Origin: Pseudovibrio sp. M1P-2-3
GTDB taxonomy: Bacteria > Pseudomonadota > Alphaproteobacteria > Rhizobiales > Stappiaceae
Assembly: GCF_031501865.1 (NCBI RefSeq)
Contig: NZ_JARRCW010000001.1
Coordinates: 3,369,001-3,433,000 of the forward strand
Direction: 5' to 3'
Length of the DNA stretch: 64,000 nucleotides
Made by a program: the position numbers and the translations under genes. Shown here piece by piece: positions 11,052 to 59,037 of the stretch. The first letter of the stretch is position 1. Every line of letters begins with the position of its first letter. The notes below the pieces were generated by a model. That model saw only the letters and a list, made by a program, of their open reading frames with translations. It made no database searches and was not told the DNA's origin.

Positions 11052-11174
11052 CCCTCTCTCTCAACAGTAGTAATTTGTAATTCAAGACTTCATCTGCACC
11101 ATCAAACGATCACCCTCTCGCTTGGAAGTTAAAGTGAGTGGGTGAACTCGCAAATATGGTCAGCACATGGAGGC

Positions 11175-12170
11175 CTAATCAACCTCGACAACTAACCTGC
11201 CGCGGATTTTCCCTTGCAAAATTGCTGCTGCTTTTTCTGGAACCTCATCCAGCTGACAGCTTTCAGACAAACTATCGAGCTTATGTAAATCCAGATCACA
11301 AACAAGCCTCTCATAAGCTTGCTCGCGCAAGTGCATTGGCGCATGAACACTGTCAACGCCCAAAAGAGCTACAGAGCGAAGAATGAACGGCAGCATTGAC
11401 GCCTCCAAGCCATATCCTTGCGCAATGCCACAGGCAGCTACAGCTCCACCGTAGTTGGCGCGGGAAATCAAGTTTGCTAGAGTATGGCTGCCCGCAACAT
11501 CAACAGCACCAGCCCAACTTTCTTTCTGGAACGGCTCTCCAGCAAGCCCTATCTCCGAGCGATTTCGAACCTCGTTGGCTCCAAGACCTTTCAAAAATTC
11601 TGTTTCATTTTCCCGACCTGTAAAAGCAATCGTATGGTAACCCAACTTTGAAAGGATGCTCAAAGCCACAGTACCCACACCGCCGGAAGCTCCGGAAACC
11701 GCAACTGGACCTTTGTCAGGACTGATTCCATACTGTTCGAGTGCGAGTACACACAGCATTGCAGTATAACCAGCAGTCCCAATTGCTGCAGCACGCCTTG
11801 CCGAAATTTCTGCAGGACGGCGAACCAACCAATTACTATTGACCCTTGCATAAGACGCATACCCTCCTGTGTGTACCTCACTCAGGCCATAGCCATTCAA
11901 AATCACAGGATCGCCCTCAGAGAACTTTGGGGATGAACTTTGAGCAACCTCACCAATGACATCTATTCCAGGGATCATCGGAAACCTGCGAATAATCGCG
12001 GGGTTATTAGATAATGCCATACCATCTTTATAGTTCACTGTAGTATGGGTGACTTTGACAAGTACATCACCCGCGGAAAGGTCATCAACACGAGTGCTTT
12101 TCCAAGTAGCAGGCATAATTTTACCACTGCTTTCATCCTTTGTAATCCAAAGAGCTTTAAACTGTTCCAC
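11175..12170 (-). CDS. Acrylyl-CoA reductase-like MDR oxidoreductase (AcuI/YhdH family)
   Basis: A 331-residue medium-chain dehydrogenase/reductase of the YhdH/AcuI group. These NADPH enzymes reduce acrylyl-CoA and related compounds, and in marine alphaproteobacteria AcuI handles acrylate from DMSP breakdown. Visible features are the N-terminal TTVNYKDGMAL and GIDVIGEV segments, the Rossmann motif VSGASGGVGTVA near residue 158, and no zinc-binding cysteine pattern. It is transcribed away from nadA, and the two genes share a 372-base intergenic region. No DMSP genes lie next to it, so acrylate specificity is not proven. Confidence 0.88.
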   Translation of the reverse strand: MEQFKALWITKDESSGKIMPATWKSTRVDDLSAGDVLVKVTHTTVNYKDGMALSNNPAIIRRFPMIPGIDVIGEVAQSSSPKFSEGDPVILNGYGLSEVHTGGYASYARVNSNWLVRRPAEISARRAAAIGTAGYTAMLCVLALEQYGISPDKGPVAVSGASGGVGTVALSILSKLGYHTIAFTGRENETEFLKGLGANEVRNRSEIGLAGEPFQKESWAGAVDVAGSHTLANLISRANYGGAVAACGIAQGYGLEASMLPFILRSVALLGVDSVHAPMHLREQAYERLVCDLDLHKLDSLSESCQLDEVPEKAAAILQGKIRGRLVVEVD

Positions 12171-12426
12171 AACTTACTTCCTTACGCGGGCACTTACAAA
12201 AAGACTATTTCCAAGTCATTCAACACATATTACTGACTTCATCTCACTTACATACAAAGGTAAAAATAATCGTCCATTAAGAACAAGCAGTATAAATGGG
12301 ATTAGCCCCCAACTACCGGTGTCTCAGCAAGCCATTGTCTATTTTGAAGAATTTACTTTTCAAGTTGGTATGCTTGAGTTTCTTAGAATTATTGGCACAA
12401 GATTTCTTTTGATTTCCACTTCTAGA

Positions 12427-12455
12427 CCTTATATATGCACTAGTTGAGCATAAGG
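12427..12455. promoter_or_regulatory. Candidate NrtR operator 1 in the nadA leader
   Basis: CCTTAT and ATAAGG (12427-12432 and 12450-12455) form outer inverted arms around a 17-base centre that includes TTGAGC. The right half (TTGAGCATAAGG) repeats exactly at operator 2. A possible sigma-70 promoter (TTGATT about 12409, TATATG about 12432, 17-base spacer) would overlap it. The left arm matches only at its outer 6 bases, so this copy is weaker than the downstream one. The link to NrtR is inferred. Confidence 0.4.
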
Positions 12456-12475
12456 CGGCAAAGGCCGCAATTTTT
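12455..12475 (+). terminator. Weak hairpin with T-run between the two nadA-leader palindromes
   Basis: GCGGC and GCCGC (12455-12459 and 12464-12468, loop AAAG) form a short GC-rich stem followed by AATTTTT. It resembles a weak intrinsic terminator on the plus strand about 70 bases before nadA. It could attenuate transcripts started upstream of it, or be incidental. Confidence 0.3.
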
Positions 12476-12483
12476 ATTAGTCT

Positions 12484-12508
12484 CCTTATACTCATTTTGA
12501 GCATAAGG
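12484..12508. promoter_or_regulatory. Candidate NrtR operator 2 in the nadA leader
   Basis: A 25-base near-perfect palindrome: CCTTATACTCA, a TTT centre, then TGAGCATAAGG. The arms are 11 bases with one mismatch (A against C). It lies 35 bases before the nadA ATG and includes TATACT, which could be a -10 element, so a bound repressor would block initiation. Such A/T-edged palindromes with ACTCA/TGAG cores suit a dimeric winged-helix regulator. With nrtR encoded nearby, NrtR is the natural candidate. Confidence 0.6.
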
Positions 12509-12542
12509 AAGACAGAACTACAGGTTGCCAAAGGAGCGACGC

Positions 12543-13634
12543 ATGACTGCCACACTTGAAAAGGCCACGACATTGCAGAATGGTGTGCCAACGCCGCCGC
12601 TTACTGCAAAAGAGCGGTTTGGTGTTCTGCCACGCCCTGATCTTTCGTACACTGAAGAAGTGGCTCGAGAAACAGCACCTATCTATGAGAAGCTAAAGGA
12701 TTTTATTCCCGCAATTGAGTGGCCTGCGTTAGCTCCTTACATGTATGCAATCAACAAACTAAAGAAGCAGCGTAACGCTGTTATTCTCGCTCATAACTAT
12801 ATGACTCCTGATATTTTCCATGGGGTTGCAGATATTGTTGGTGACAGCTTACAGCTGGCTAAGGAAGCACAAAAAACTGATGCAGAAGTGATCGTGCAAT
12901 GCGGCGTTCATTTTATGGCAGAGACTTCTAAAATTCTCAGTCCAGAAAAAACTGTACTCATACCCGACATGGATGCAGGGTGTTCTCTTGCAGAATCCAT
13001 TACAGGAGCAGATGTACGAAAGCTACGGGAAGAAAACCCGGGCATTCCAATCATCACCTATGTCAACACGTCAGCGGATGTAAAAGCCGAGTGTGATATC
13101 TGCTGCACCTCTTCCAACGCCGTTCAAGTAGTTGAAGCTATGGGGACAGATAGAGTTTTCCTTGTCCCTGACCAGTACCTTGCTGCAAATGTTGGGCGCC
13201 AAACCGACGTGGAGGTTCTTACCTACGCCGGTTCCTGTGAAGTCCACGAGCGCTTCACCGCAGAAGAGCTGCGCGATTACCGGAAAGTTGATCCTGATGT
13301 AAAAATCATAGCTCACCCAGAATGCCCCCCGGAGGTAGTTGACGAGGCTGATTTTGCAGGTTCAACAGCCCATATGATCAACTGGGTTAAGGAAAAGCGC
13401 CCTAAGAAAGTCATGATGATTACCGAGTGCTCCATGGCGGACAACGTTGCCTCGGAAACGCCGGACGTCAATTTCATTAAACCTTGCAACCTATGTCCGC
13501 ATATGAAGAGGATTACATTGAACAAGATTCTCGACAGCCTATTAGATATGTCCGGTGAGGTTATTGTTGATGAAAGCATTGCCGAGCGTGCGCGCGCATC
13601 TGTTGAGCGCATGATCAACCTCAAAACAAACTAA
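12543..13634 (+). CDS. nadA: Quinolinate synthase NadA
   Basis: NadA condenses iminoaspartate with dihydroxyacetone phosphate to quinolinate, the second step of de novo NAD synthesis, using an oxygen-sensitive [4Fe-4S] cluster. The product is 363 residues. The cluster cysteines and active-site segments are visible: [27 protein letters not shown] and CNLCPHM. AGGAG (12531-12535) sits 7 bases before this ATG; a TTG at 12525 in frame is rejected. nadB follows after 118 bases and nadC after that, so the three steps are encoded together. Two palindromes upstream suggest repression by NrtR. Confidence 0.96.
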
Positions 13635-47264: not shown

Positions 47265-48852
<1,588 letters not shown>

Positions 48853-48900
48853 CAGAGGCAGCATAGCTAAAGGGCACAGTTCCACATCTAAAAGTTTAAA

Positions 48901-48927
48901 CCCACCTTCTCATTTAGAGAAGGTGGG
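48901..48927. terminator. Strong hairpin between converging ccrM and tyrS fragment
   Basis: CCCACCTTCTC and GAGAAGGTGGG form a perfect 11-bp stem with a 5-base loop. On the minus strand it is followed by TTTAAACTTTTAG, so it is a better terminator for the tyrS fragment than for ccrM, where AACACAATTTCG follows. Confidence 0.7.
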
Positions 48928-48949
48928 AACACAATTTCGATATCACTTC

Positions 48950-49318
48950 TTAGGTAAATTGCACCAAGGCTCGGCCATCTTTCCCGATGGCCATATCAAG
49001 CCGCTCGCCCACGCCAATATCACCTTCAGAAATAATACGGGATTCGTTCACAACCAAAACATTATTGATTCGGACAGCTCCCGATCGCACTAAGCCACGA
49101 GCTTCACTGCTGGAACCAGCAAAGCCTGTTTCAATCATCAACTCTAGAAGCCTCACAGGCTTTGCAAGTAAGGAAAGGGGTAACAAATGGGTCGGTCTTT
49201 TGTCATCTTCATGATTTTGAAGAAAAGTCTGCCCCGAGTCCGAAGTCATATCAGTAACGTCAAGGTAACGCATTGCCCCTGTTATCTTTGTTGCAAGAGC
49301 CTTTTTAGCTTCGGTCAT
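48950..49318 (-). CDS. S4 RNA-binding domain protein (3' part of a broken tyrS)
   Basis: A 122-residue frame with a good ribosome site (AAAGG 8-9 bases before the ATG). Its first residues (MTEAKKALATKIT) match the helical segment of tyrosyl-tRNA synthetase just before the S4 domain. The rest is the S4 fold itself: GFAGSSSEARGLVRSGAVRIN, then IDVG-like turns and the final DMAIGKDGRALVQF. It could be made as a free S4 protein, or be the tail of a TyrS chain reached by a -1 shift at the A7 run before its start. See the enclosing pseudogene. Confidence 0.6.
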   Translation of the reverse strand: MTEAKKALATKITGAMRYLDVTDMTSDSGQTFLQNHEDDKRPTHLLPLSLLAKPVRLLELMIETGFAGSSSEARGLVRSGAVRINNVLVVNESRIISEGDIGVGERLDMAIGKDGRALVQFT

Positions 49319-49755
49319 TTTTTTGCACCTTTCAAATTTGCTAAGCAATGAACTGTATCTAACAATACTGAGAAGATTTGTTTCACTAATCGGTTCAGCT
49401 CTCTGTTATCGTTGGCCCGCCTTATTTGTCCAAAATCATGATCGGTCAGGAGGTGATAGTTTAACCAAACATTACGTTGGCGACCTCCCCGCAATTTCTT
49501 TCCATTCAAACTCCTAATCAAAGAGCACATTGGTCCAAACAAAACATCCCTTTGTTGATCAACGTCACCAAGTGGCGAGAAACACTGGAGTAGTTTCAAT
49601 GCTTGAGGAGTGAAGCTACAGGACGGACCAGTGTTTGTGTATTTCCGGAATTGATGGTGTTCCGGAGTTTCTCGAATACCTATTGAGAATTTGAACCGAA
49701 AAAGTTCCCGGACAAGTCCATGATTATTAGCTAGACTATCGGCGGAGCAAATCAT
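48950..49755 (-). pseudogene. tyrS: Truncated and frame-split tyrosyl-tRNA synthetase (C-terminal half)
   Basis: The upstream frame (49315-49755) ends with clear TyrS landmarks in order: LFGPMCSLI (LFG-LTCPLI in TyrS), NGKKLRGGRQR where KMGKT-type catalytic residues belong, NVWLN, LLTDHDFGQ, and LANLKGAKK. The overlapping S4 frame then continues with TEAKKALATK. The two are joined in phase by a -1 shift at AAAAAAATGA (near 49317-49324). The N-terminal Rossmann half with HIGH is absent, the signature lysines are lost and the GGSDQWGN region is shortened, so it cannot be an active synthetase. A working tyrS must exist elsewhere. Confidence 0.7.
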
Positions 49756-50161
49756 ACTTCACCTATGCATTCTGACTTTAGGCTGCATCGCCAAGTCCTG
49801 CCGAACGGCAACTCACATAAGCAAACTAGCTGAGGCGTCTTATAAAAAAGCTGACGCCCTATTGGATTATTTTGATACGATTTTGCCATTTGGATCCCCT
49901 GTTGCCGCATCAGGGACCCAAAAAAACAAAAGCCGCCCTAAGCGGCGGCTGTTTGTTTTCTTAAACTCTTGTCAGAAGCAATAGGAAACACGTGCCGCTC
50001 GTATGTGCGCCACGGTAAAATATACATAAGAAAATGTGCTCTGTTTCCTGCTCATACCTTTTTATTGCCCCAGTCTTTCAAGAGTTGTCAAGTGGTTTCA
50101 GGAGCATCACAGTTCATTGTCAGGAAATTGTGAAGGATTTTTTTGTTAAAAGGACGCTATC
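49756..50161. other. Intergenic region between the tyrS fragment and the GT11 gene
   Basis: 406 bases without a supported gene or any recognisable TyrS N-terminal coding remnant. It holds the GGCGTC/GACGCC hairpin at 49834-49858, the strong terminator at 49931-49959 and, at the right end, the promoter and AAAGGA ribosome site of the fucosyltransferase. Confidence 0.5.
49921..49959. terminator. Bidirectional terminator without an adjacent gene
   Basis: AGCCGCC and GGCGGCT form a 7-bp stem with loop CTAAGC. GTTTGTTTTC follows on the plus strand, and TTTGTTTTTTT follows on the minus strand. The nearest genes start outward from it, so it looks orphaned or may end an unseen small RNA. Confidence 0.75.
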
Positions 50162-51073
50162 GTGATTATCCTAAGGCTTCGTGGTGGATTAGGGAATCAG
50201 CTCTTTCAATATGCAATCGGCAGGCATCTCTCCATCGTTCACCGCTGCCCCCTTAAGTTCGATTGCAGTCATTACGCTGAATACAAAGACCGGTCCCCTC
50301 TTATATTTTCCTTTAATATTTTTGGCGAACAAGCAACATTGGCAGACATGAAGCATGTTTTCTGGCCTGCAGAAGGAAGAGGACAATTCTCACAATCCTT
50401 GAAGAAAATTTTTCCAAGTTACCAAAGGCACTTTGTGGTAGAAAAGAAGATGAAGGAGCCCCATCAGCTCCCCCTCAACTCCCCTCCTCTTTATGTGGAC
50501 GGTTTCTTCCAGTGCTTCACGCACGCACGTGCTATCAAACAAGAATTGCTAACCGATCTCACACTCAAAGTAGGCCTATCTGAATCACGGCTCAACTTTC
50601 TAGAACTGGCAAAGCGCGACAATTCAATTGCCATGCATATAAGGCGCGGTGATTACCTGAATGCGCAATTTCTTCAAAATTTTGGCCAATGCTCAAACAC
50701 ATACTACTACAATGCGATTTCTAAATTGAGAGATCAGGTTGGGAGCTCTCCTCTCCTTGTTTTTTCAGATGACCCACAATATGCTAAGGACACTTACGGT
50801 CACTTTCCCAATATTTATATCATTCCCAATTTTAACGACCAAAATGATGAACAGGATCTCTACCTGATGCAGCAATGCAACCACACCATCATGGCCAATA
50901 GCAGCTTCAGTTGGTGGGCGGCCTTTATGAACACACAAAAGAACCAGCAGGTAATAGCCCCAAAGCGCTGGTTTAAAAATCGCTCAGTAGATGAGAACAA
51001 TCTACTTCCACCCAATTGGACTAGGTTGGAAACCTTCACCCAGAAAGTTACTCAGACATCAGATATCTGGTAA
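50162..51073 (+). CDS. Glycosyltransferase family 11 (alpha-1,2-fucosyltransferase-like)
   Basis: A 303-residue GT11 enzyme expected to transfer fucose from GDP-fucose to a sugar of a surface glycan. The signatures are present: the N-terminal [17 protein letters not shown], the nucleotide-sugar site HIRRGDY near residue 160 (H-x-R-R-x-D), and the C-terminal [14 protein letters not shown]. The start is a GTG with AAGGA about 8 bases upstream. No GDP-fucose synthesis genes lie in this window. The gene converges on the HAD gene and its end overlaps that gene by 26 bases. Confidence 0.9.
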
Positions 51074-51710
51074 GCTCTCGCATATTTGAGAAAATACGAT
51101 GAGGAGAGGATCGCTCCAGTTGTCTTCTTAACCCCTCAGTGTAGTGAGAAGCACCTGTAAAGCCCAGAACTGTCATACCGGCTTTCAAAGCCCCCTCAAC
51201 TCCGTGACAACTATCCTCAATAACAAGACACCGCTCAGGACTAACTCCCATTTTGTCCGCGGCATACAAGAAAATATCTGGAGCAGGTTTGCCCAGTTCC
51301 ACTTGATCCGCCGAAAAAATGTGCCCATGTAAGCGAGGGTATAATCCGGTTAGCTTCAATGTATATTCCAACCGCCTTAGCGAACTACCGGAAGCCACAC
51401 ACATCTCGCCTCGATATATTTCAAAAAGCTCATAGACACCTGAAACGGATTCTAACTTGTTTTTGAAAAGAGCCTCAAGTTGTTCAGTAAGGTTACTAAA
51501 GACACCATGATAACGAAAATCTCGTCCGGTTTCTTTTTCGATCTGAGCAAAAACATCCGCTTCGCGAACGCCCATGAACCGCTCAATATAGGTATTCGTA
51601 GATATGAAATATCCTGCTTTTGTTAAAAGCTCCGCCTCCAGAGCACAAGCAAGATACTCACTATCAATCAAACAACCGTCACAGTCCCATATAAGCAAAT
51701 CATAGTTCAT
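51048..51710 (-). CDS. HAD family phosphatase (beta-phosphoglucomutase-like)
   Basis: A 220-residue HAD hydrolase with the nucleophile motif [12 protein letters not shown] at the start (D-x-D), the Thr/Ser motif [11 protein letters not shown], the Lys in [13 protein letters not shown], and the acidic motif [17 protein letters not shown]. The cap domain and overall form resemble sugar-phosphate phosphatases and beta-phosphoglucomutase. The ATG at 51710 follows GGAAG by 5 bases, so the frame's upstream extension is dropped. It lies between glycosyltransferases, so a sugar phosphate is a reasonable guess for the substrate. Confidence 0.88.
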
Positions 51711-51746
51711 AATAGCTTCCCATCTTTCCAACTCCTTATATGGAAG

Positions 51747-52982
51747 CTATGAGAAGGGTAGCAAATCACTCTTTGTGCTATTTCTTTTCAAAGAGATAGG
51801 GTGACATTGTATGCCATCTAGTGTGCGTTCCAACTCCATAAATGCCTTTGCAGAAACTGAAAAATGCTGGTGTGCCCCGCCCAATTCGCACAGAATCGGT
51901 GTGTAACTTTGATTTTTCAAAACCGAGATCCACATATACGCACTTTGGACATAGTTACGAGGAAGAAGCTCTAATACGACACCTCCAGATTGGGAGAATA
52001 AAATGTTGGTTAATCCAGCTCCGTGAGCCCCTATAATCACCTTCGCTTCATTAAATATCTTTACTTGTTCAGGGTGGCTCAGTTCACCGGGGCAAATTAT
52101 ATCAAACCCTTTTCTCAACAAGAATTTTTCCAGTTGCTCCTCATTGAGAATTCTTCGAATTCTAGCATCCCTACGGGACACGTAGATTTTTCGATATGGC
52201 CGTACACCTTCCAAAATACCGTAGGATCTTTTGAAATAGGCTGAAACCTTGTTTGCAGAGATCCTTGAGGGCGGACTTCTGAAATTGTTCGCTCTTTGCT
52301 CAGATAAGAAAATGAGATTTTCGCACGCGTAACGCTCGGTTTCAGATGTAATAGCAAACTCCAAAAATGGATATAACTTCTGCAGATATGAAAATATATT
52401 TCTTTGAAAACTACTTAAGTCAGAGCGAACTAAAACTGTAATTTTATCATAATTTCCAGATACTTCCTCACAGAGGCGAATGAACTGAGGCAAGATATGG
52501 CTAATGAACATATAGTAGTGTTTATGCCCTTTAGGAAGACCAAGAAAGTTAGAGACTGTTCCATTCAGATGAACAGTCTCTAACTTTCTAAAGCGAGCAG
52601 TATTGTGTTGCAGGTCCTCAACCTGTGATTTATCACCGCGTATAATTGAAGAACCGGAATGCCCAAGGACATAACACTTCGACAGTTTGTAAAGCGTTCC
52701 TTCCACTACTCCATCAATTCGCAATCCAGTTTTTGATTTGAGTTTTTCCAAGTCAGCGAACTGTTGTAGAAACACCATTTGTGCCTCATTTAAAGCGCAC
52801 TCACTCTCATCTTTCCATTGTGCAACAATTTTCTGAGAGAATTCACTGAGATCAGATTGTTTGGAGTAAAAATTGTACTTTCGAGCGTATTCAGGAAATA
52901 ATCTCGCAATTCTCAGCTGAACAAAAAAGCGTATCTGCCGTGCGGTTGGTATCCAGCGCCGCCAAACCGGTGCCTGCCTCAT
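51747..52982 (-). CDS. Glycosyltransferase family 61 protein (copy 1)
   Basis: A 411-residue protein with the GT61/DUF563 core: RKIYVSRRDARIRRILNEE, then VIIGAHGAGLTNILFSQSGGVVLEL near residue 325. GT61 enzymes transfer xylose, arabinose or related sugars. There is no signal peptide or transmembrane helix; the N-terminus (MRQAPVWRRW) is basic and aromatic and may bind the membrane surface. The ATG at 52982 is chosen because the second copy begins the same way and GGGGGGA precedes it. It sits 147 bases downstream of its paralogue on the same strand. Confidence 0.85.
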   Translation of the reverse strand: MRQAPVWRRWIPTARQIRFFVQLRIARLFPEYARKYNFYSKQSDLSEFSQKIVAQWKDESECALNEAQMVFLQQFADLEKLKSKTGLRIDGVVEGTLYKLSKCYVLGHSGSSIIRGDKSQVEDLQHNTARFRKLETVHLNGTVSNFLGLPKGHKHYYMFISHILPQFIRLCEEVSGNYDKITVLVRSDLSSFQRNIFSYLQKLYPFLEFAITSETERYACENLIFLSEQRANNFRSPPSRISANKVSAYFKRSYGILEGVRPYRKIYVSRRDARIRRILNEEQLEKFLLRKGFDIICPGELSHPEQVKIFNEAKVIIGAHGAGLTNILFSQSGGVVLELLPRNYVQSAYMWISVLKNQSYTPILCELGGAHQHFSVSAKAFMELERTLDGIQCHPISLKRNSTKSDLLPFS

Positions 52983-53081
52983 ATTTCCCCCCATCTATCC
53001 TAGCCCAGCATAGATGGGTCAAACCAATAGGTTCAGCTCCATATTTTAAGGGGCAATAAACGAAGGAAACCGACAAAGATA

Positions 53082-53105
53082 AGCGAGAAAACCACTCTTC
53101 TCGCT
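53082..53105 (-). terminator. Hairpin between the two GT61 genes
   Basis: AGCGAGAA and TTCTCGCT form a perfect 8-bp stem with an 8-base loop, 25 bases after the stop of the upstream GT61 copy. TATCTTTG follows on the minus strand, so it is a weak terminator at best and may allow read-through to copy 1. Confidence 0.55.
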
Positions 53106-53129
53106 TTGAAAATTTACCAGTTAGTTCAG

Positions 53130-54332
53130 TTAGGCAACTTGTGCAGCTTCACCTTCAGTATGCCCTGACAAAATGCTTTCAAGCTCACTCAAATTTTCCT
53201 CAGTTAATGAAAAATTCTGATGACCCAAGCTTTTACTTCCCACAATCGGAGTATACTGATGTTCCTTCAATGTTGACATCCAAGTATAGGCTCCCTGAAT
53301 ATAATCAGCCGGGAAGATTTCTATGACATGTCCCTCAGGCTGCGTAAACATCAAATTTGTAAGACCTGCGCCGTGAACACCTACAACAATCTTGGCTTCC
53401 GAGAAGACCTTTACTTGCTCTTTATGGCTGAGGTTCCCTGGTGTAACAACCTCAAATCCATAAGAACCGAGTAGATCGATCAGTTTTTGCTCATTCAGAA
53501 CCTGCCTGATTTTCGCATCCTGCCGGCACACGTATATCTTCCTAAATGGCTTCTGTAAGGCACTGAGCTCATAGGCTGCTCGGTAAACGCCAGCAACCAA
53601 CTCCATAGCATTTTGGGAGTATGGACTCCTGAACTTACTTGAGCCACGTCCACGCAAATATACAAGCTCGTCGCACAGGACACGTTCAGTTGTATTGATT
53701 ATCTCGAAACGAACGTTCGGCTTCCAACTTTCAATTTGTTTATAAAAAGTTTTTTGGAAACCGGATAAATCTTCTCGCACCAGAATTGTCAGCTTCTCAT
53801 AGCGGGAGCTGAAGCCATCAAGAAACTGGAGGAATGACGGCATGAAGAGGCAGTGAAAGAAGTAATAGTGCCTATGACCTTTTGGGACGCCCAATAAGTT
53901 TAAGCAATACCCCTTGATATGCCGATCCTTCATAGTTTGAAAGCGCATCGTATTTTTTGATAATGCCTCAACCTGACACCGCTCATCTTTTAGAAGATTT
54001 GAGCCGGTATGCCCCAGCACATAGACGTTTTTGAATTCATAAACACGGGCAAACAAATGGGCACTTTTAGGAGTTTTTCCGCCGGTTCTCTGCTTCTCAT
54101 TGTCTCCAAAGTCCTGCAGAAAATCATGCAATTCTTCGGATAAAGAAACTTCACTATAGTCTGCCCAGCTCAAGGCCTCGGTTTGATCGACTTGATCCCA
54201 ATCCATTTGCTTCAATACAAAATTGTAGCGTAATGCCAGTGTGGGAAATAACTTCGCAATGGTAGATTGAATAAAAAACCTGATTTCTCTTCCGGTTGGA
54301 AACCAGCTTCTCCACTTTGGAGCTTGACGCAT
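53130..54332 (-). CDS. Glycosyltransferase family 61 protein (copy 2)
   Basis: A 400-residue paralogue of the neighbouring GT61 protein. They share the start (MRQAPKWRSWFPTGREIRFF), the middle segment LGVPKGHRHYYFF, and the core KIYVCRQDAKIRQVLNEQ with IVVGVHGAGLTNLMFTQPEG, but differ widely elsewhere, so the duplication is old or the copies have been selected for different acceptors. The C-terminus is longer and Glu-rich. It is the first gene of the minus-strand pair. Confidence 0.87.
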   Translation of the reverse strand: MRQAPKWRSWFPTGREIRFFIQSTIAKLFPTLALRYNFVLKQMDWDQVDQTEALSWADYSEVSLSEELHDFLQDFGDNEKQRTGGKTPKSAHLFARVYEFKNVYVLGHTGSNLLKDERCQVEALSKNTMRFQTMKDRHIKGYCLNLLGVPKGHRHYYFFHCLFMPSFLQFLDGFSSRYEKLTILVREDLSGFQKTFYKQIESWKPNVRFEIINTTERVLCDELVYLRGRGSSKFRSPYSQNAMELVAGVYRAAYELSALQKPFRKIYVCRQDAKIRQVLNEQKLIDLLGSYGFEVVTPGNLSHKEQVKVFSEAKIVVGVHGAGLTNLMFTQPEGHVIEIFPADYIQGAYTWMSTLKEHQYTPIVGSKSLGHQNFSLTEENLSELESILSGHTEGEAAQVA

Positions 54333-54447
54333 TTCATACCCTCTTCAATTAAGGGGAAAATAAAACGCGTTCGTTAAACCTACATTAACTATTTTTAATT
54401 TTTGCACAACTACCCCCTCAGATTTCTTCCGAAGGGGTACTTGGGCG

Positions 54448-56040
54448 TTATTCAGCAGCAATTTTTGGCTCAACTTCAGTTTGAGCGGGGGCCTGCCATT
54501 TTAGTACTGGCTTTCTCGCAGCTGTTGTCTCATCCAGTCGGCGACGTGGGGCGTGGAAAGGAGCACCTTCAAAGCGATCCATTTCGCCATTTTGAGCTGA
54601 CAAGACAAGGTCTCGAAGGGTAGCAACAAACAGATCTAGTGAAGCTCTGCTCTCAGACTCGGTAGGTTCAATCAGCATGGCCCCATGCACCACAAGAGGG
54701 AAGTACATGGTCATAGGATGATAGCCTTCGTCTATCATTGCCTTAGCGAAGTCCAGTGTTGTCACACCTGTCCCTTTGAGGAAGGTATCATCAAACAAAA
54801 CCTCATGCATGCATGGCTTTTCACCATAGGGTAGGCTCATTACATCTTGCAGACCAACACGAACATAGTTGGCGTTAAGAACGGCATCTTCTGAAGCTTG
54901 TTTTAGTCCTTCCGCGCCATGAGATAGCATATAGCTTAGTGCGCGGACAAACATTCCCATTTGACCATGGAAAGCTGTCATGCGGCCGAAAGGATTCTCC
55001 TCCCCTGTTAACTGGCTGCTTGTCTCTACGACTTCGTTTCCCTCTTTACCTTTTCGAAGGAAAGGTAACGGAGCGAAAGGAGCAAGCCTTTCCGACAAAA
55101 CCACAGGTCCGGAACCGGGTCCCCCGCCTCCATGCGGAGTTGAAAAGGTTTTGTGGAGATTGATGTGCATGGCATCAATGCCCAAATCCCCAAGCCTTAC
55201 TTTTCCAACAATAGCGTTGAAATTAGCACCATCACAGTAAAAGTAAGCACCAGCATCATGGATTGCTTTTGCAATCTCAATCACTTGTGGTTCAAACAAC
55301 CCGCAGGTATTTGGATTTGTGAGCATTAAGGCAGCAATATCATCCTTATGCTCCTCCAGTTTCTCAGTCACAGCAGAAATATCTACCGTTCCGTCGTCTC
55401 TAGCGGGAATAGAAACAACCTTAAACCCAAGTACAGCAGCTGTTGCAGGGTTGGTCCCATGAGCACTTTCCGAAACCAGTACAATAGAGCGCGGTTCACC
55501 ACGTACCTCCAGTGCCTTTTTAATTGCCATCATACCGCACTGCTCGCCATGTGCGCCCGCTTTAGGGCTCATGGCAACCGCTTGTGTACCGGTTGTCACC
55601 ATCAGCCAATGGGCAAGCTCCGCAATGAGTTCAAAGGCCCCTTCAGCTGTTGATATTGGCTGTAACGGGTGAAGATCAGCAAAGCCCGGCAAACGCGCCA
55701 GCTTCTCATTAAGCCGCGGGTTATGCTTCATGGTGCAGGATCCTAATGGATAAAGCCCAGCATCAATCGCATAGTTGTTTCTGGAAAGGCGCACATAGTG
55801 ACGCATTACCTCCGGCTCAGAAAGTCCAACAAGGTCAATCGGACTTTTTCGCTCATGATTACCTAAACGCGGCTGAAAATCTTCTGGCTCATCCAAGTCG
55901 ACACCGCAGATATCCGTCCGGCCAATCTCAAAGAGCAATGGCTCTTCCATGTCCAGCGCTCTATTGCCTGTAAACGTCTGCGGTTTCTCTGTGGAGTGTA
56001 AGCCAACTGAAGTTGGGCGGCCCTGTTTATTCATAGTCAT
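54448..56040 (-). CDS. gcvPB: Glycine dehydrogenase (decarboxylating) subunit 2, GcvPB
   Basis: GcvPB is the PLP-carrying half of the two-subunit P-protein of the glycine cleavage system. The 530-residue product has the PLP Lys in [18 protein letters not shown] near residue 290, with [13 protein letters not shown] and [10 protein letters not shown] upstream. Its ATG overlaps the gcvPA stop by 4 bases (ATGA), so the two subunits are coupled. It is the last gene of the riboswitch-controlled operon. No clear terminator follows. Confidence 0.95.
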
Positions 56041-57389
56041 GCCAGAGCCTCCTTAAGAGCCAAAACAAACGCCGCACGGTCAGCATCTGTATTCACTTCA
56101 GTATTTGCAACCACAATCAAGTCTTTCAAGCTGTTTTTGTCAGGCTCGAGCCGCGAAACAGGTAGCCCCCCTAAAATACCTGAGGAAGCAAGGGACTCAA
56201 TGACTTCAGCAGCATCTGCAGGCACTTTGATTGTGAACTCATTGAAGAAGCTAGAGTTTAACACTTCAACACCGGCTATCACCTCAAGTTGATCTGCAAG
56301 TTTCACCGCATTTGCATGGTTGATACGGGCAAGCTTCCGTAAACCGGTTTCACCTAGCAGTGTCATGTGAATGGTAAAGGCCAAACAACAAAGACCCGAG
56401 TTGGTACATATATTTGAGGTCGCTTTATCGCGCCGAATATGTTGCTCTCTCGTCGACAGGGTTAGCACAAAGCCTCTTCTCCCTTCAGCATCTGTCGTCT
56501 CACCGCAAACACGTCCGGGCATATTGCGAACATATTTTTGTCGTGTCGCAAACAGACCGACATATGGGCCGCCAAAAGTAAGAGGATTCCCCAATGACTG
56601 CCCTTCCCCAACAACAATATCAGCTCCCTGCGCACCGGGGCTTTCAATGAGCCCAAGAGAGACGACCTCTGTAAATACGGATATGAGCAAAGCTTTATGC
56701 TGATGAGCTTTTTCAGCAATCAGTTTTAAGTCAATCAGTTGCCCGTAAAACGAGGGCGACTGAACGACCACACACGAAACACTATCATCAATCTGGGAGA
56801 GAATGTCCTCTGTTCCCTCTGGGTCTGCAGGCAAGGCCACAACGTCCCCATCCGGCAACTGGCGGGATATGCTTTCAATCACCTCCCGATATTGTGGGTG
56901 CAACCCTCCAGAAATAAGTGCTTTTTTCTTCTTCGTAATACGATGGGCCATGAGAACGGCCTCAGCAGCTCCTGTAGACCCATCATACATGGAGGCATTG
57001 GCTACTTCCATTCCAGTCAGGTGCGCAACCTGTGTTTGAAATTCAAACAGGGCCTGCAAGGTTCCTTGAGTAATCTCGGGCTGATAAGGCGTGTAGCTTG
57101 TTAGAAACTCGGAGCGTTGAATCAGATGATCCACGGTCGCAGGGACATGGTGCTTGTAGGCCCCGGCGCCCACAAAAAACGGAAGAGAGCCAGCCGACCT
57201 ATTTTTATTTGCAAGCGCAGTGAGATGCCGTTCCACTTCCATTTCACTCTTCCGCTTGGGGAGAGAGGAAAGTTCACCAAGGCGAACGTTCTCAGGAATC
57301 TCGGCAAACAGATCATCTATGCTGTCTACGCCAACCCGCACCAACATTTCGGCGCGGTCGCTATCAGAAAGCGGAAGATACCGCATCAT
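56037..57389 (-). CDS. gcvPA: Glycine dehydrogenase (decarboxylating) subunit 1, GcvPA
   Basis: GcvPA is the other half of the split P-protein. The 450-residue product begins [16 protein letters not shown] and has the family segments [56 protein letters not shown] and [10 protein letters not shown]. The gene lies 66 bases downstream of gcvH and overlaps gcvPB. Split P-proteins are usual in some bacterial lineages and in archaea. Confidence 0.95.
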
Positions 57390-57455
57390 TTCACTCCAGA
57401 TAAGAGGCTGAGTACCCCTGAGGCACTCTATGGGTTTTTAAAAAGATCACTCGAT

Positions 57456-57827
57456 TTAAAGAGTGTTCACAAACGCCTTGTAATCGACTTCGTTCATCAA
57501 CCCCTCCAGCTGGTCAGGACTTGAGACCTTTAATTTAAAGAACCATGCGGAGTTTTCAGGGTCTTCATTCACCTTGCCGGGCTCGTCTTCGAGATCATTA
57601 TTGCCACCCGTGACTTCTCCACTAATTGGGGCATAAACTTCACTAGCCGCCTTCACTGATTCAACAACAGCTGCTTCATCACCCTTTGAGAGGCTCTTCC
57701 CGACCTCTGGCAGTTCAACGAATACAATATCCCCCAGTTGAGATTGGGCATATTCCGTAATGCCGATTGTCGCCTCTTCCCCTTCGAGAGAAACCCATTC
57801 ATGATCCTTAGTGTAAAAAGTGCTCAT
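57456..57827 (-). CDS. gcvH: Glycine cleavage system H protein
   Basis: GcvH is the lipoylated shuttle of the glycine cleavage system. The 123-residue product has the lipoyl domain with the modified Lys in VESVKAASEVYAPISGE near residue 63, and HEWVSLEGEEATIGIT at the start. A ribosome site (GAGGAAGA) precedes the ATG. It lies between gcvT and gcvPA, the usual order. Confidence 0.97.
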   Translation of the reverse strand: MSTFYTKDHEWVSLEGEEATIGITEYAQSQLGDIVFVELPEVGKSLSKGDEAAVVESVKAASEVYAPISGEVTGGNNDLEDEPGKVNEDPENSAWFFKLKVSSPDQLEGLMNEVDYKAFVNTL

Positions 57828-57891
57828 CTTCTTCCTCTTAGTTCTGAGAACTCATCGTGTTTATTACTGAAATGCAGTCATTCAGACCGTT

Positions 57892-59037
57892 TCAACGCTT
57901 CGCCCGATAATAACGTTGCTGGACAAACGGCATTGACGTGACCGTTGCTTTCAAAGCCTTTCCCCGAACAATCAAGGAAAATTCTGTTCCCTCAGCAGTC
58001 AATTTTTCTGGCACATAACCCATGGCAATGGGTTGGCCCAATGTTGGAGAAAAACCACCTGAGGTCACTTTGCCAATCACTTCATTTGTTTCGGGCAGGC
58101 AAATATCAGCACCTTCACGGGCGGGAGCCCGGCCTTTCAACAACAGGCCAATGCGGCGTTTGTCAGGCCCTTGGGCCAATTCCCGCACTATCCGCTCCCC
58201 ACCCACAAAGTTTGCAGTCTCACGTCTTCTTTTTTGGATGCAAAAGGCAATATTGGCCTCAATGGGTGAATTGCTCTCATTCATATCATGGCCATAAAGG
58301 CAAAGACCTGCCTCAAGACGCAGGCTGTCTCGTGCACCAAGGCCAATGGGCCGAACACGTTCATCAGCAAGAAGGGCACGTGCGATAGGCTCTGCCGTTC
58401 CAGCTGGCATACTTAGCTCAAAGCCATCTTCCCCAGTATATCCAGAGCGAGAAACCATGATTTCGATATCATCAAACCTAATTCGTTTAACGGACATAAA
58501 TGCCATCCCAGAGACTTCCGGCGCATGAAGGGCCAATACCTCCTCAGCCTTTGGCCCTTGAAGAGCTATAAGCGCCTTTTCATCGAGTTGAATGAGGGAA
58601 AACCCTTCGGGTAACACGGCATTGATATAGTCGAAGTCCGTATGCTTACACGCAGCATTGACCACCAGAAGCAGATTGCCATCCATTTCAGGCTCTTCCG
58701 GACGTGCGATCATTAAGTCATCAAGAATGCCGCCAGACTGGTTCAAAAGAACGGTATATCGCTGTTTGCCACGTTGCAGTTCCCTGATGTTGGAGGGGAC
58801 CAGAGCTTCAATAAAGTCCGAAGTGGCTTCGTGGTTCGGCCCTTCAAGCACAAACTGTCCCATGTGGGAAACATCAAACAGACCTACCGCTTTACGCGTA
58901 TGAAGATGCTCTTTCATGATACCATCTGGATACTGCACAGGCATGGAATACCCAGCAAATGGCACCATACGCGCGCCACATTCCATATGAAGGTCATATA
59001 ATGGGGTAAATTTCAATCCAGCATTCTTTGCTGCCAT
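57892..59037 (-). CDS. gcvT: Aminomethyltransferase GcvT (T protein)
   Basis: GcvT releases ammonia and transfers the methylene unit from the H protein to tetrahydrofolate. The 381-residue product has HMECGARMVPFAGYSMPVQY, VSHMGQF, SRSGYTGEDGFEL and LGARDSLRLEAGLCLYGHD, with the folate-site Asp in the last of these. GAGG lies just before the ATG. The gene starts directly behind a tandem glycine riboswitch and heads the operon gcvT-gcvH-gcvPA-gcvPB. Confidence 0.96.
   Translation of the reverse strand: MAAKNAGLKFTPLYDLHMECGARMVPFAGYSMPVQYPDGIMKEHLHTRKAVGLFDVSHMGQFVLEGPNHEATSDFIEALVPSNIRELQRGKQRYTVLLNQSGGILDDLMIARPEEPEMDGNLLLVVNAACKHTDFDYINAVLPEGFSLIQLDEKALIALQGPKAEEVLALHAPEVSGMAFMSVKRIRFDDIEIMVSRSGYTGEDGFELSMPAGTAEPIARALLADERVRPIGLGARDSLRLEAGLCLYGHDMNESNSPIEANIAFCIQKRRRETANFVGGERIVRELAQGPDKRRIGLLLKGRAPAREGADICLPETNEVIGKVTSGGFSPTLGQPIAMGYVPEKLTAEGTEFSLIVRGKALKATVTSMPFVQQRYYRAKR

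Follow-up and report, generated by a model that had tools for sequence, protein, structure and literature searches.

Among glycosyltransferases of family GT61, the closest described systems are POMGNT2 and EOGT (structures 7e9j-l, 6xfi, 8kb7, and 9wjk), which adopt a GT-B fold. In a 2026 structure paper (PMC13123520), binding of uridine diphosphate (UDP) by GT61 enzymes is ascribed to an N-R-R triad, and residue H248 of EOGT is equated with H166 of POMGNT2, the proposed catalytic base of the latter enzyme. This histidine is called invariant across GT61 members, and the substitution H248A markedly lowers the activity of EOGT. The paper reports Gly at the Asn position of the triad for Proteobacteria and treats the catalytic base as still only proposed, even in disease-linked mammalian members of the family. 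A literature search retrieved no paper on GT61 proteins or fucosyltransferases in Pseudovibrio, and none was noticed on a GT61 pair of the kind described here. The subject of this report is a locus in a 64-kb stretch (hereafter, the window) of the genome of Pseudovibrio sp. M1P-2-3, in which a fucosyltransferase-like gene of family GT11, a haloacid dehalogenase (HAD) phosphatase gene, and two tandem GT61 genes (GT61a and GT61b) lie between a remnant of a tyrosyl-tRNA synthetase gene (tyrS) and the gcv genes. The main interest of the locus is this species-specific GT61 pair, which lacks the proposed catalytic base.

Results

Conservation and residue losses of the GT61 pair

GT61a (415 residues; positions 51747..52994 of the window, minus strand) and GT61b (400 residues; 53130..54332, minus strand) scored 87.3 and 81.9 bits, respectively, against the Pfam family Glyco_transf_61 (PF04577; curated cut-off of 27). 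They were the sole GT61 proteins found in the window genome (4.96 Mb, 8 contigs), which groups with Pseudovibrio, and were compared to those of 15 further Pseudovibrio species (G001 to G015). Fourteen of these species (hereafter, the syntenic relatives) harbor at the same locus a single GT61 gene, which shares its neighbors and an N-terminal signature with the window pair. The encoded proteins are 34–42% identical to the window copies and differ from them in retaining the motif HYYHF..D, which is present in 14/14 cases.

A profile alignment to EOGT (E-value of 2.3e-12), in which the arginines aligned within one residue, placed H248 on column 158 of GT61b. A histidine occupies this column in all 14 syntenic relatives. 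Alignment of the window copies revealed Phe158 in GT61b (codon at 53859..53861, minus strand) and Met162 in GT61a (codon at 52509..52511, minus strand) at this site. The column was also inspected in 49 other GT61 rows, comprising 12 of the 14 syntenic relatives (without G004 and G011), a family set of nine, and 28 class-wide loci (L165 to L192, best open reading frame of each). Histidine was present in 48 of these rows, i.e. in 12/12 rows from the genus locus, 9/9 rows from the family set (including a second GT61 copy of G005), and 27/28 class rows, the exception being a Ser in L171. Since the surrounding motif G-x-x-HYY-x-F is otherwise unchanged and free of gaps, the alignment at column 158 is secure. 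The Asp located at column 162 of all 14 syntenic relatives is replaced by Leu162 in GT61b and by His166 in GT61a. Loss of the histidine was invisible to the preliminary description of the window since relatives were needed to see it.

Sixty-seven alignment columns were invariant across the 14 relatives, of which 61 were retained in GT61a and 58 in GT61b; only H158, D162, and L167 were gone from both copies. In a leave-one-lineage-out control, six other rows displayed 3 to 14 changed columns, as compared to 6 for GT61a and 9 for GT61b; since the sequences against which each row was compared included those of the window, this control is uninformative for columns 158 and 162. The number of changed columns is ordinary and it is their placement that stands out. 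The residue losses do not appear to be a matter of general decay. R270, R276, H320, N326, and E338 were retained in both window proteins. By alignment, R270 and R276 are the donor-phosphate arginines of the N-R-R triad, R270 being one residue off EOGT R372. The sequence HYY stands at the first position of the triad (from residue 155 on) in all 14 syntenic relatives. Outside the locus, sequence alignment revealed Asn at this position in 33 of the 37 class GT61 rows (L129 to L137 and L165 to L192).

The predicted models of the two proteins (predicted local distance difference test of 86.6 and predicted template modeling score of 0.85 for GT61a; 87.2 and 0.84 for GT61b) both matched the GT-B fold of solved GT61 enzymes. 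Among the matches listed, POMGNT2 was the nearest solved fold for GT61b (Z-score of 18.1, 273 aligned residues, root mean square deviation of 4.2 Å, and Foldseek TMq of 0.43–0.46). It was also the best Foldseek match for GT61a (E-value of 1.4e-11, TMq of 0.43). The fold search says little on residues 1 to 46. The basic and aromatic start of the GT61 proteins, to which the preliminary description had drawn attention, is real: the signature MRxAPxWRxxxPTxRxxR was present in all 16 GT61 proteins encoded by the genus locus, including the window pair, and in none of the 37 other rows.

The two window proteins, described earlier as diverged tandem paralogues, are 43% identical. They grouped as sister genes, with support of 86/92 in the absence of outgroups and 97/92 in their presence. 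Among the 16 genomes, a tandem GT61 pair was found at the locus in the window genome only; the second GT61 gene of G005 lies elsewhere.

Synteny and divergence of the locus

Used alone as the query in a protein scan of the genome contigs, GT61b retrieved no relative; an alignment used as the query retrieved 12 matching loci, all from Pseudovibrio. In 14 of the 15 relatives, the interval from a second, intact tyrS to gcvPB contains GT11 on the plus strand facing GT61 on the minus strand, and five of these 14 species have two GT11 copies there. The exception, G006, displays the order tyrS-HAD-gcvPB without GT11 and GT61, and carries GT11-like genes elsewhere. Thirteen of the 15 relatives carry the HAD gene at the locus; G007 and G014, which have both glycosyltransferase genes, do not. 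Because the HAD gene and the glycosyltransferase genes each occur at the locus without the other, they are not bound to one another, and membership of HAD in a four-gene unit, as implied by the preliminary description, was ruled out.

Identity to the window proteins was 80–84% for GcvPA, 82–87% for CcrM, 62–66% for GcvT, 47–55% for HAD, 37–43% for GT11, and 38–42% for GT61. Among relatives, the identity of the glycosyltransferases mostly drops as kinship drops, and trees recover a ten-species group and the G007-G014 pair. The ratio of nonsynonymous to synonymous substitution rates (dN/dS) of GT11 and GT61 was 0.01–0.12 in the three closest pairs of relatives, indicating purifying selection on the relatives' copies; eight pairs were analyzed, GT11 and GT61 being saturated in four of them and dS exceeding 1 in G001/G003. 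For these three reasons, we read the low identity of the glycosyltransferases to those of the window as probable fast divergence in place.

Total GC content was 0.41–0.44 for the four genes, 0.468 for the window, and 0.49–0.50 for the gcv genes shown. At third codon positions (GC3), the values were 0.39–0.49 for the four genes, GT61a and HAD being lowest (0.39), and 0.44–0.47 for gcv. The GC content of GT61 was lower than that of GcvPA in 14/14 relatives. The composition dip is mild, is a trait of the locus, and provides no clear sign of recent arrival. Recent acquisition, an option raised in the preliminary description, was ruled out by synteny, GT11 and GT61 occupying the same slot in 14 of the 15 other species. 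GT11, HAD, and one GT61 were found to be nearly what would be expected of syntenic, conserved genes of normal composition; the second GT61 was not.

The GT11 and HAD genes

The coordinates and family assignments of all four genes held, with Pfam scores above the curated cut-offs. GT11 (303 residues; 50162..51073, plus strand) resembles the GT11 alpha-1,2-fucosyltransferases by its PF01531 domain (Glyco_transf_11, 94.7 bits; cut-off of 23.9) and by the motif HIRRGDY at residue 159, a form of the HxRRxD motif that we take to be a hallmark of GT11 fucosyltransferases; its donor and linkage are putative. Comparison of the GT11 profile to solved structures identified no relative, a single row being at chance level (E-value of 0.49). 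The four genes do not include a polymerase or a flippase, and the sugar-nucleotide pathway lies elsewhere, as the preliminary description had supposed: gmd (589.8 bits, above cut-off) is located about 168 kb from the locus and is directly followed by an fcl-like gene (488.1 bits; cut-off of 500). Supply of GDP-fucose in the window genome is therefore plausible on the basis of these profile matches.

In the tree of GT11 proteins, the window copy grouped with the upstream copies and with those of G007 and G014 (support of 82/96). None of four other groupings was rejected by approximately unbiased (AU) tests (p-values of 0.138–0.485). An ancestral order GT11-HAD-GT11-GT61 followed by differential loss would, as a conjecture, explain the order seen in the window. 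In ten species (L040 to L043 and L046 to L051), the GT11 gene facing GT61 encodes HVRYGDY/F, a version of HxRRGD whose second Arg is replaced by Tyr. A second GT11, which has HIRRGDF, was found in three of the ten. Internal stops in the relatives' GT11 genes were reported in one table; the table of open reading frames gives GT11 frames encoding 300–361 residues at the loci. Outside Pseudovibrio, a GT61-GT11 tandem was also observed in a different genus of the same family (L130, 9241-11230), where two open reading frames located just downstream on the opposite strand look glycosyltransferase-like on reading.

The HAD gene (227 residues; 51048..51731, minus strand; PF00702/PF13419) scored 74.1 bits against Hydrolase (cut-off of 26.4). 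It is located 15 bases downstream of GT61a and overlaps GT11 tail to tail by 26 bases. The family profile matched the HAD subfamily IA sugar phosphatases (2fdr; YieH-like) over nearly its full length, 2fdr being the best solved relative (E-value of 3.3e-56), and the protein has kept DxD and EDS, which are presumably the HAD motifs. The window protein differs from this subfamily in that it reached no equivalog cut-off within the 25 NCBIfam families listed.

Inverted repeat within GT61a

An inverted repeat of 19 perfectly paired bp, closed by a 9-nt loop (52543..52589), spans codons 136 to 151 of GT61a and stops 11 codons short of the site of the lost histidine. It is the longest repeat with a loop of at most 20 nt in the window, the runner-up being 14 bp and five Markov shuffles giving 9–11 bp. 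As RNA, the hairpin has a folding z-score of -6.54. With up to 3 mismatches allowed, the genome contains no other occurrence of the arm, and no arm longer than 9 was found among 50 other GT61, GT11, and HAD genes that were compared. The hairpin is not accompanied by a length change in GT61a, and GT61b lost the histidine without such a hairpin. We infer that the hairpin arose by a template-switch mutation; a regulatory role is possible.

Flanking genes

On the left, the locus is flanked by a conserved ccrM-like DNA methyltransferase gene (47725..48852, plus strand; profile score of 623.1 bits against a cut-off of 830), and on the right by gcvPB-gcvPA-gcvH-gcvT (54448..59037, minus strand), which are likewise conserved. 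The remnant of the second tyrS (48950..49542, minus strand), recognized by its similarity to the full-length TyrRS of relatives, was confirmed to be broken. A C-terminal fragment of 132 residues with an S4 domain occupies 48950-49348; beyond it, in a different frame and up to about 49542, lies a stretch resembling approximately residues 228–299 of the relatives' TyrRS, so that the remnant covers in total about residues 228–423 spread over two frames. The N-terminal 227 residues or so had no tblastn match within 48800-50300. The second TyrRS is full-length (423–449 residues) at the locus of all 15 relatives, and its decay is particular to the window genome among the 16, which argues against the pseudogene being a mark of insertion, as had been proposed. 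Loss of the second tyrS should be tolerable since the window genome retains elsewhere a complete TyrRS (432 residues, 365.2 bits; cut-off of 113.8), which is distantly similar to the second one. The TyrRS fragment, used as a query, had at least two matches in each of the 15 other genomes of the genus.

The spacing between ccrM and tyrS is less than 100 bp in the window (48852-48950) and in G006 (L092), and 1.05–3.1 kb in the other 14 species. In G004 (L043), gcvPB is split into two overlapping open reading frames (oriented 11065-12653), possibly owing to an assembly error. Promoter-like sites in the interval 49700-54700 were at chance level (6 versus 8.3 expected). The same interval contained 11 terminator-like sites (4.8 expected), including a two-way site at 49931-49950, upstream of GT11.

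Discussion

The interpretation that we favor, to which we assign as a whole a probability of roughly 0.6, is that the locus is an old, mostly vertically inherited feature of the genus Pseudovibrio that would decorate a surface glycan built elsewhere, and that its GT61 component would have been rebuilt in the window species. GT11 and GT61 would form the conserved pair, with HAD and the remnant of tyrS lying beside it without belonging to it. GT11 would probably add a 6-deoxyhexose from a GDP-sugar and GT61 a sugar from a UDP-sugar donor. Surface-glycan decoration is suggested by knowledge of the families and by the fact that none of the four is an assembly gene, and GT61 may act at the membrane surface. 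The ancestral GT61 of the window species would have lost the proposed catalytic His together with the Asp located four residues on. Tandem duplication would have followed, both copies then diverging with conservation of the fold and of the donor-binding residues. Most likely, the window GT61 proteins would have retained UDP-sugar binding and would be transferases whose chemistry or acceptor has changed; a role as non-catalytic partners is less likely.

Several observations weigh against this interpretation. The Asp of column 162 is not family-wide, as Asp or Glu was found in 37 of the 49 rows and in only 2 of the 9 rows of the family set. The Asn of the N-R-R triad corresponds to His155 in both window copies and in 12/12 aligned syntenic relatives, in contrast to POMGNT2 and EOGT. 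The fold match to POMGNT2 is distant, with the low TMq values reported above and 13–16% identity among the POMGNT2 rows. Trees splitting the GT61 pair were not formally rejected (AU test, p-value of 0.098), and long branches were flagged in both trees. Glycosyltransferase genes may have been replaced locally in some lineages, e.g. in G007 and G014. Between these two species, identity is 94% for GcvPA, 92% for GcvT, 88% for CcrM, and 83% for TyrRS2, whereas GT61 and GT11 reach no more than 42% and 52%, respectively, a divergence far beyond that of the flanks. Finally, and in difference from a conventional fucosyltransferase system, no Gmd above the cut-off was found in three of the 15 locus carriers (G007, G013, and G014), and a search for fucose salvage gave 0 matches in the six genomes searched, these three among them. 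The donor of GT11 need not be GDP-fucose for this reason; in the case of G013, whose assembly consists of 980 contigs, gmd may just have escaped assembly.

How the favored pair would function can be proposed tentatively, at somewhat less than even odds. Loss of the His, and of the Asp located one helical turn further along, would have preceded duplication, and the pair would either use a different base or form a paired UDP-sugar-binding module steering another transferase. The hairpin of GT61a would then tune expression or mark a recent template-switch rewrite by the active site.

Among the competing explanations, the one that survives best, although we consider it unlikely, is that the pair consists of normally active GT61 enzymes making an unchanged product, the base being supplied by a different residue, e.g. 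His160 of GT61b or His166 of GT61a. A histidine is indeed present two (GT61b) and four (GT61a) positions beyond the lost one, and most of the 67 invariant columns are retained, but the substitute would not be at the same position in the two copies, and neither of them retains the Asp column. It is doubtful that the pair consists of pseudo-glycosyltransferases that fold and perhaps bind a UDP-sugar without transferring it, serving another enzyme, e.g. GT11, as partners or as regulators. Both copies, which are the only GT61 proteins found in the genome, have lost the His proposed as catalytic base and the Asp that goes with it. However, R270, R276, N326, and E338 were kept despite large divergence, which non-catalytic proteins need not do, and no interaction is known. 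Genes on their way out, as is the neighboring tyrS, would account for the loss of catalytic residues, the adjacent pseudogene, and the mutational-looking hairpin of GT61a; this is improbable since frames of 400 and 415 codons remain intact though about 57% of the residues differ, and since 58–61 of the 67 invariant columns persist. A recently acquired glycan island, to which the total GC content under that of gcv, a GC3 of GT61a and HAD slightly under the flanks, and the neighboring pseudogene could point, is highly improbable, being already contradicted for GT11 and GT61 by the shared slot, by a GC dip that is normal for the locus, and by the trees, which leave as new only an extra GT61 copy that is sister to its neighbor.

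The locus thus illustrates that what looks like an acquired island in one genome can prove old once relatives are compared. For the GT61 family, it provides a natural bacterial pair in which the predicted fold and the donor arginines are kept and the histidine is gone, together with 14 related species that have the histidine and offer a ready comparison. Such a comparison could show what this histidine does and whether GT61 proteins work without it.

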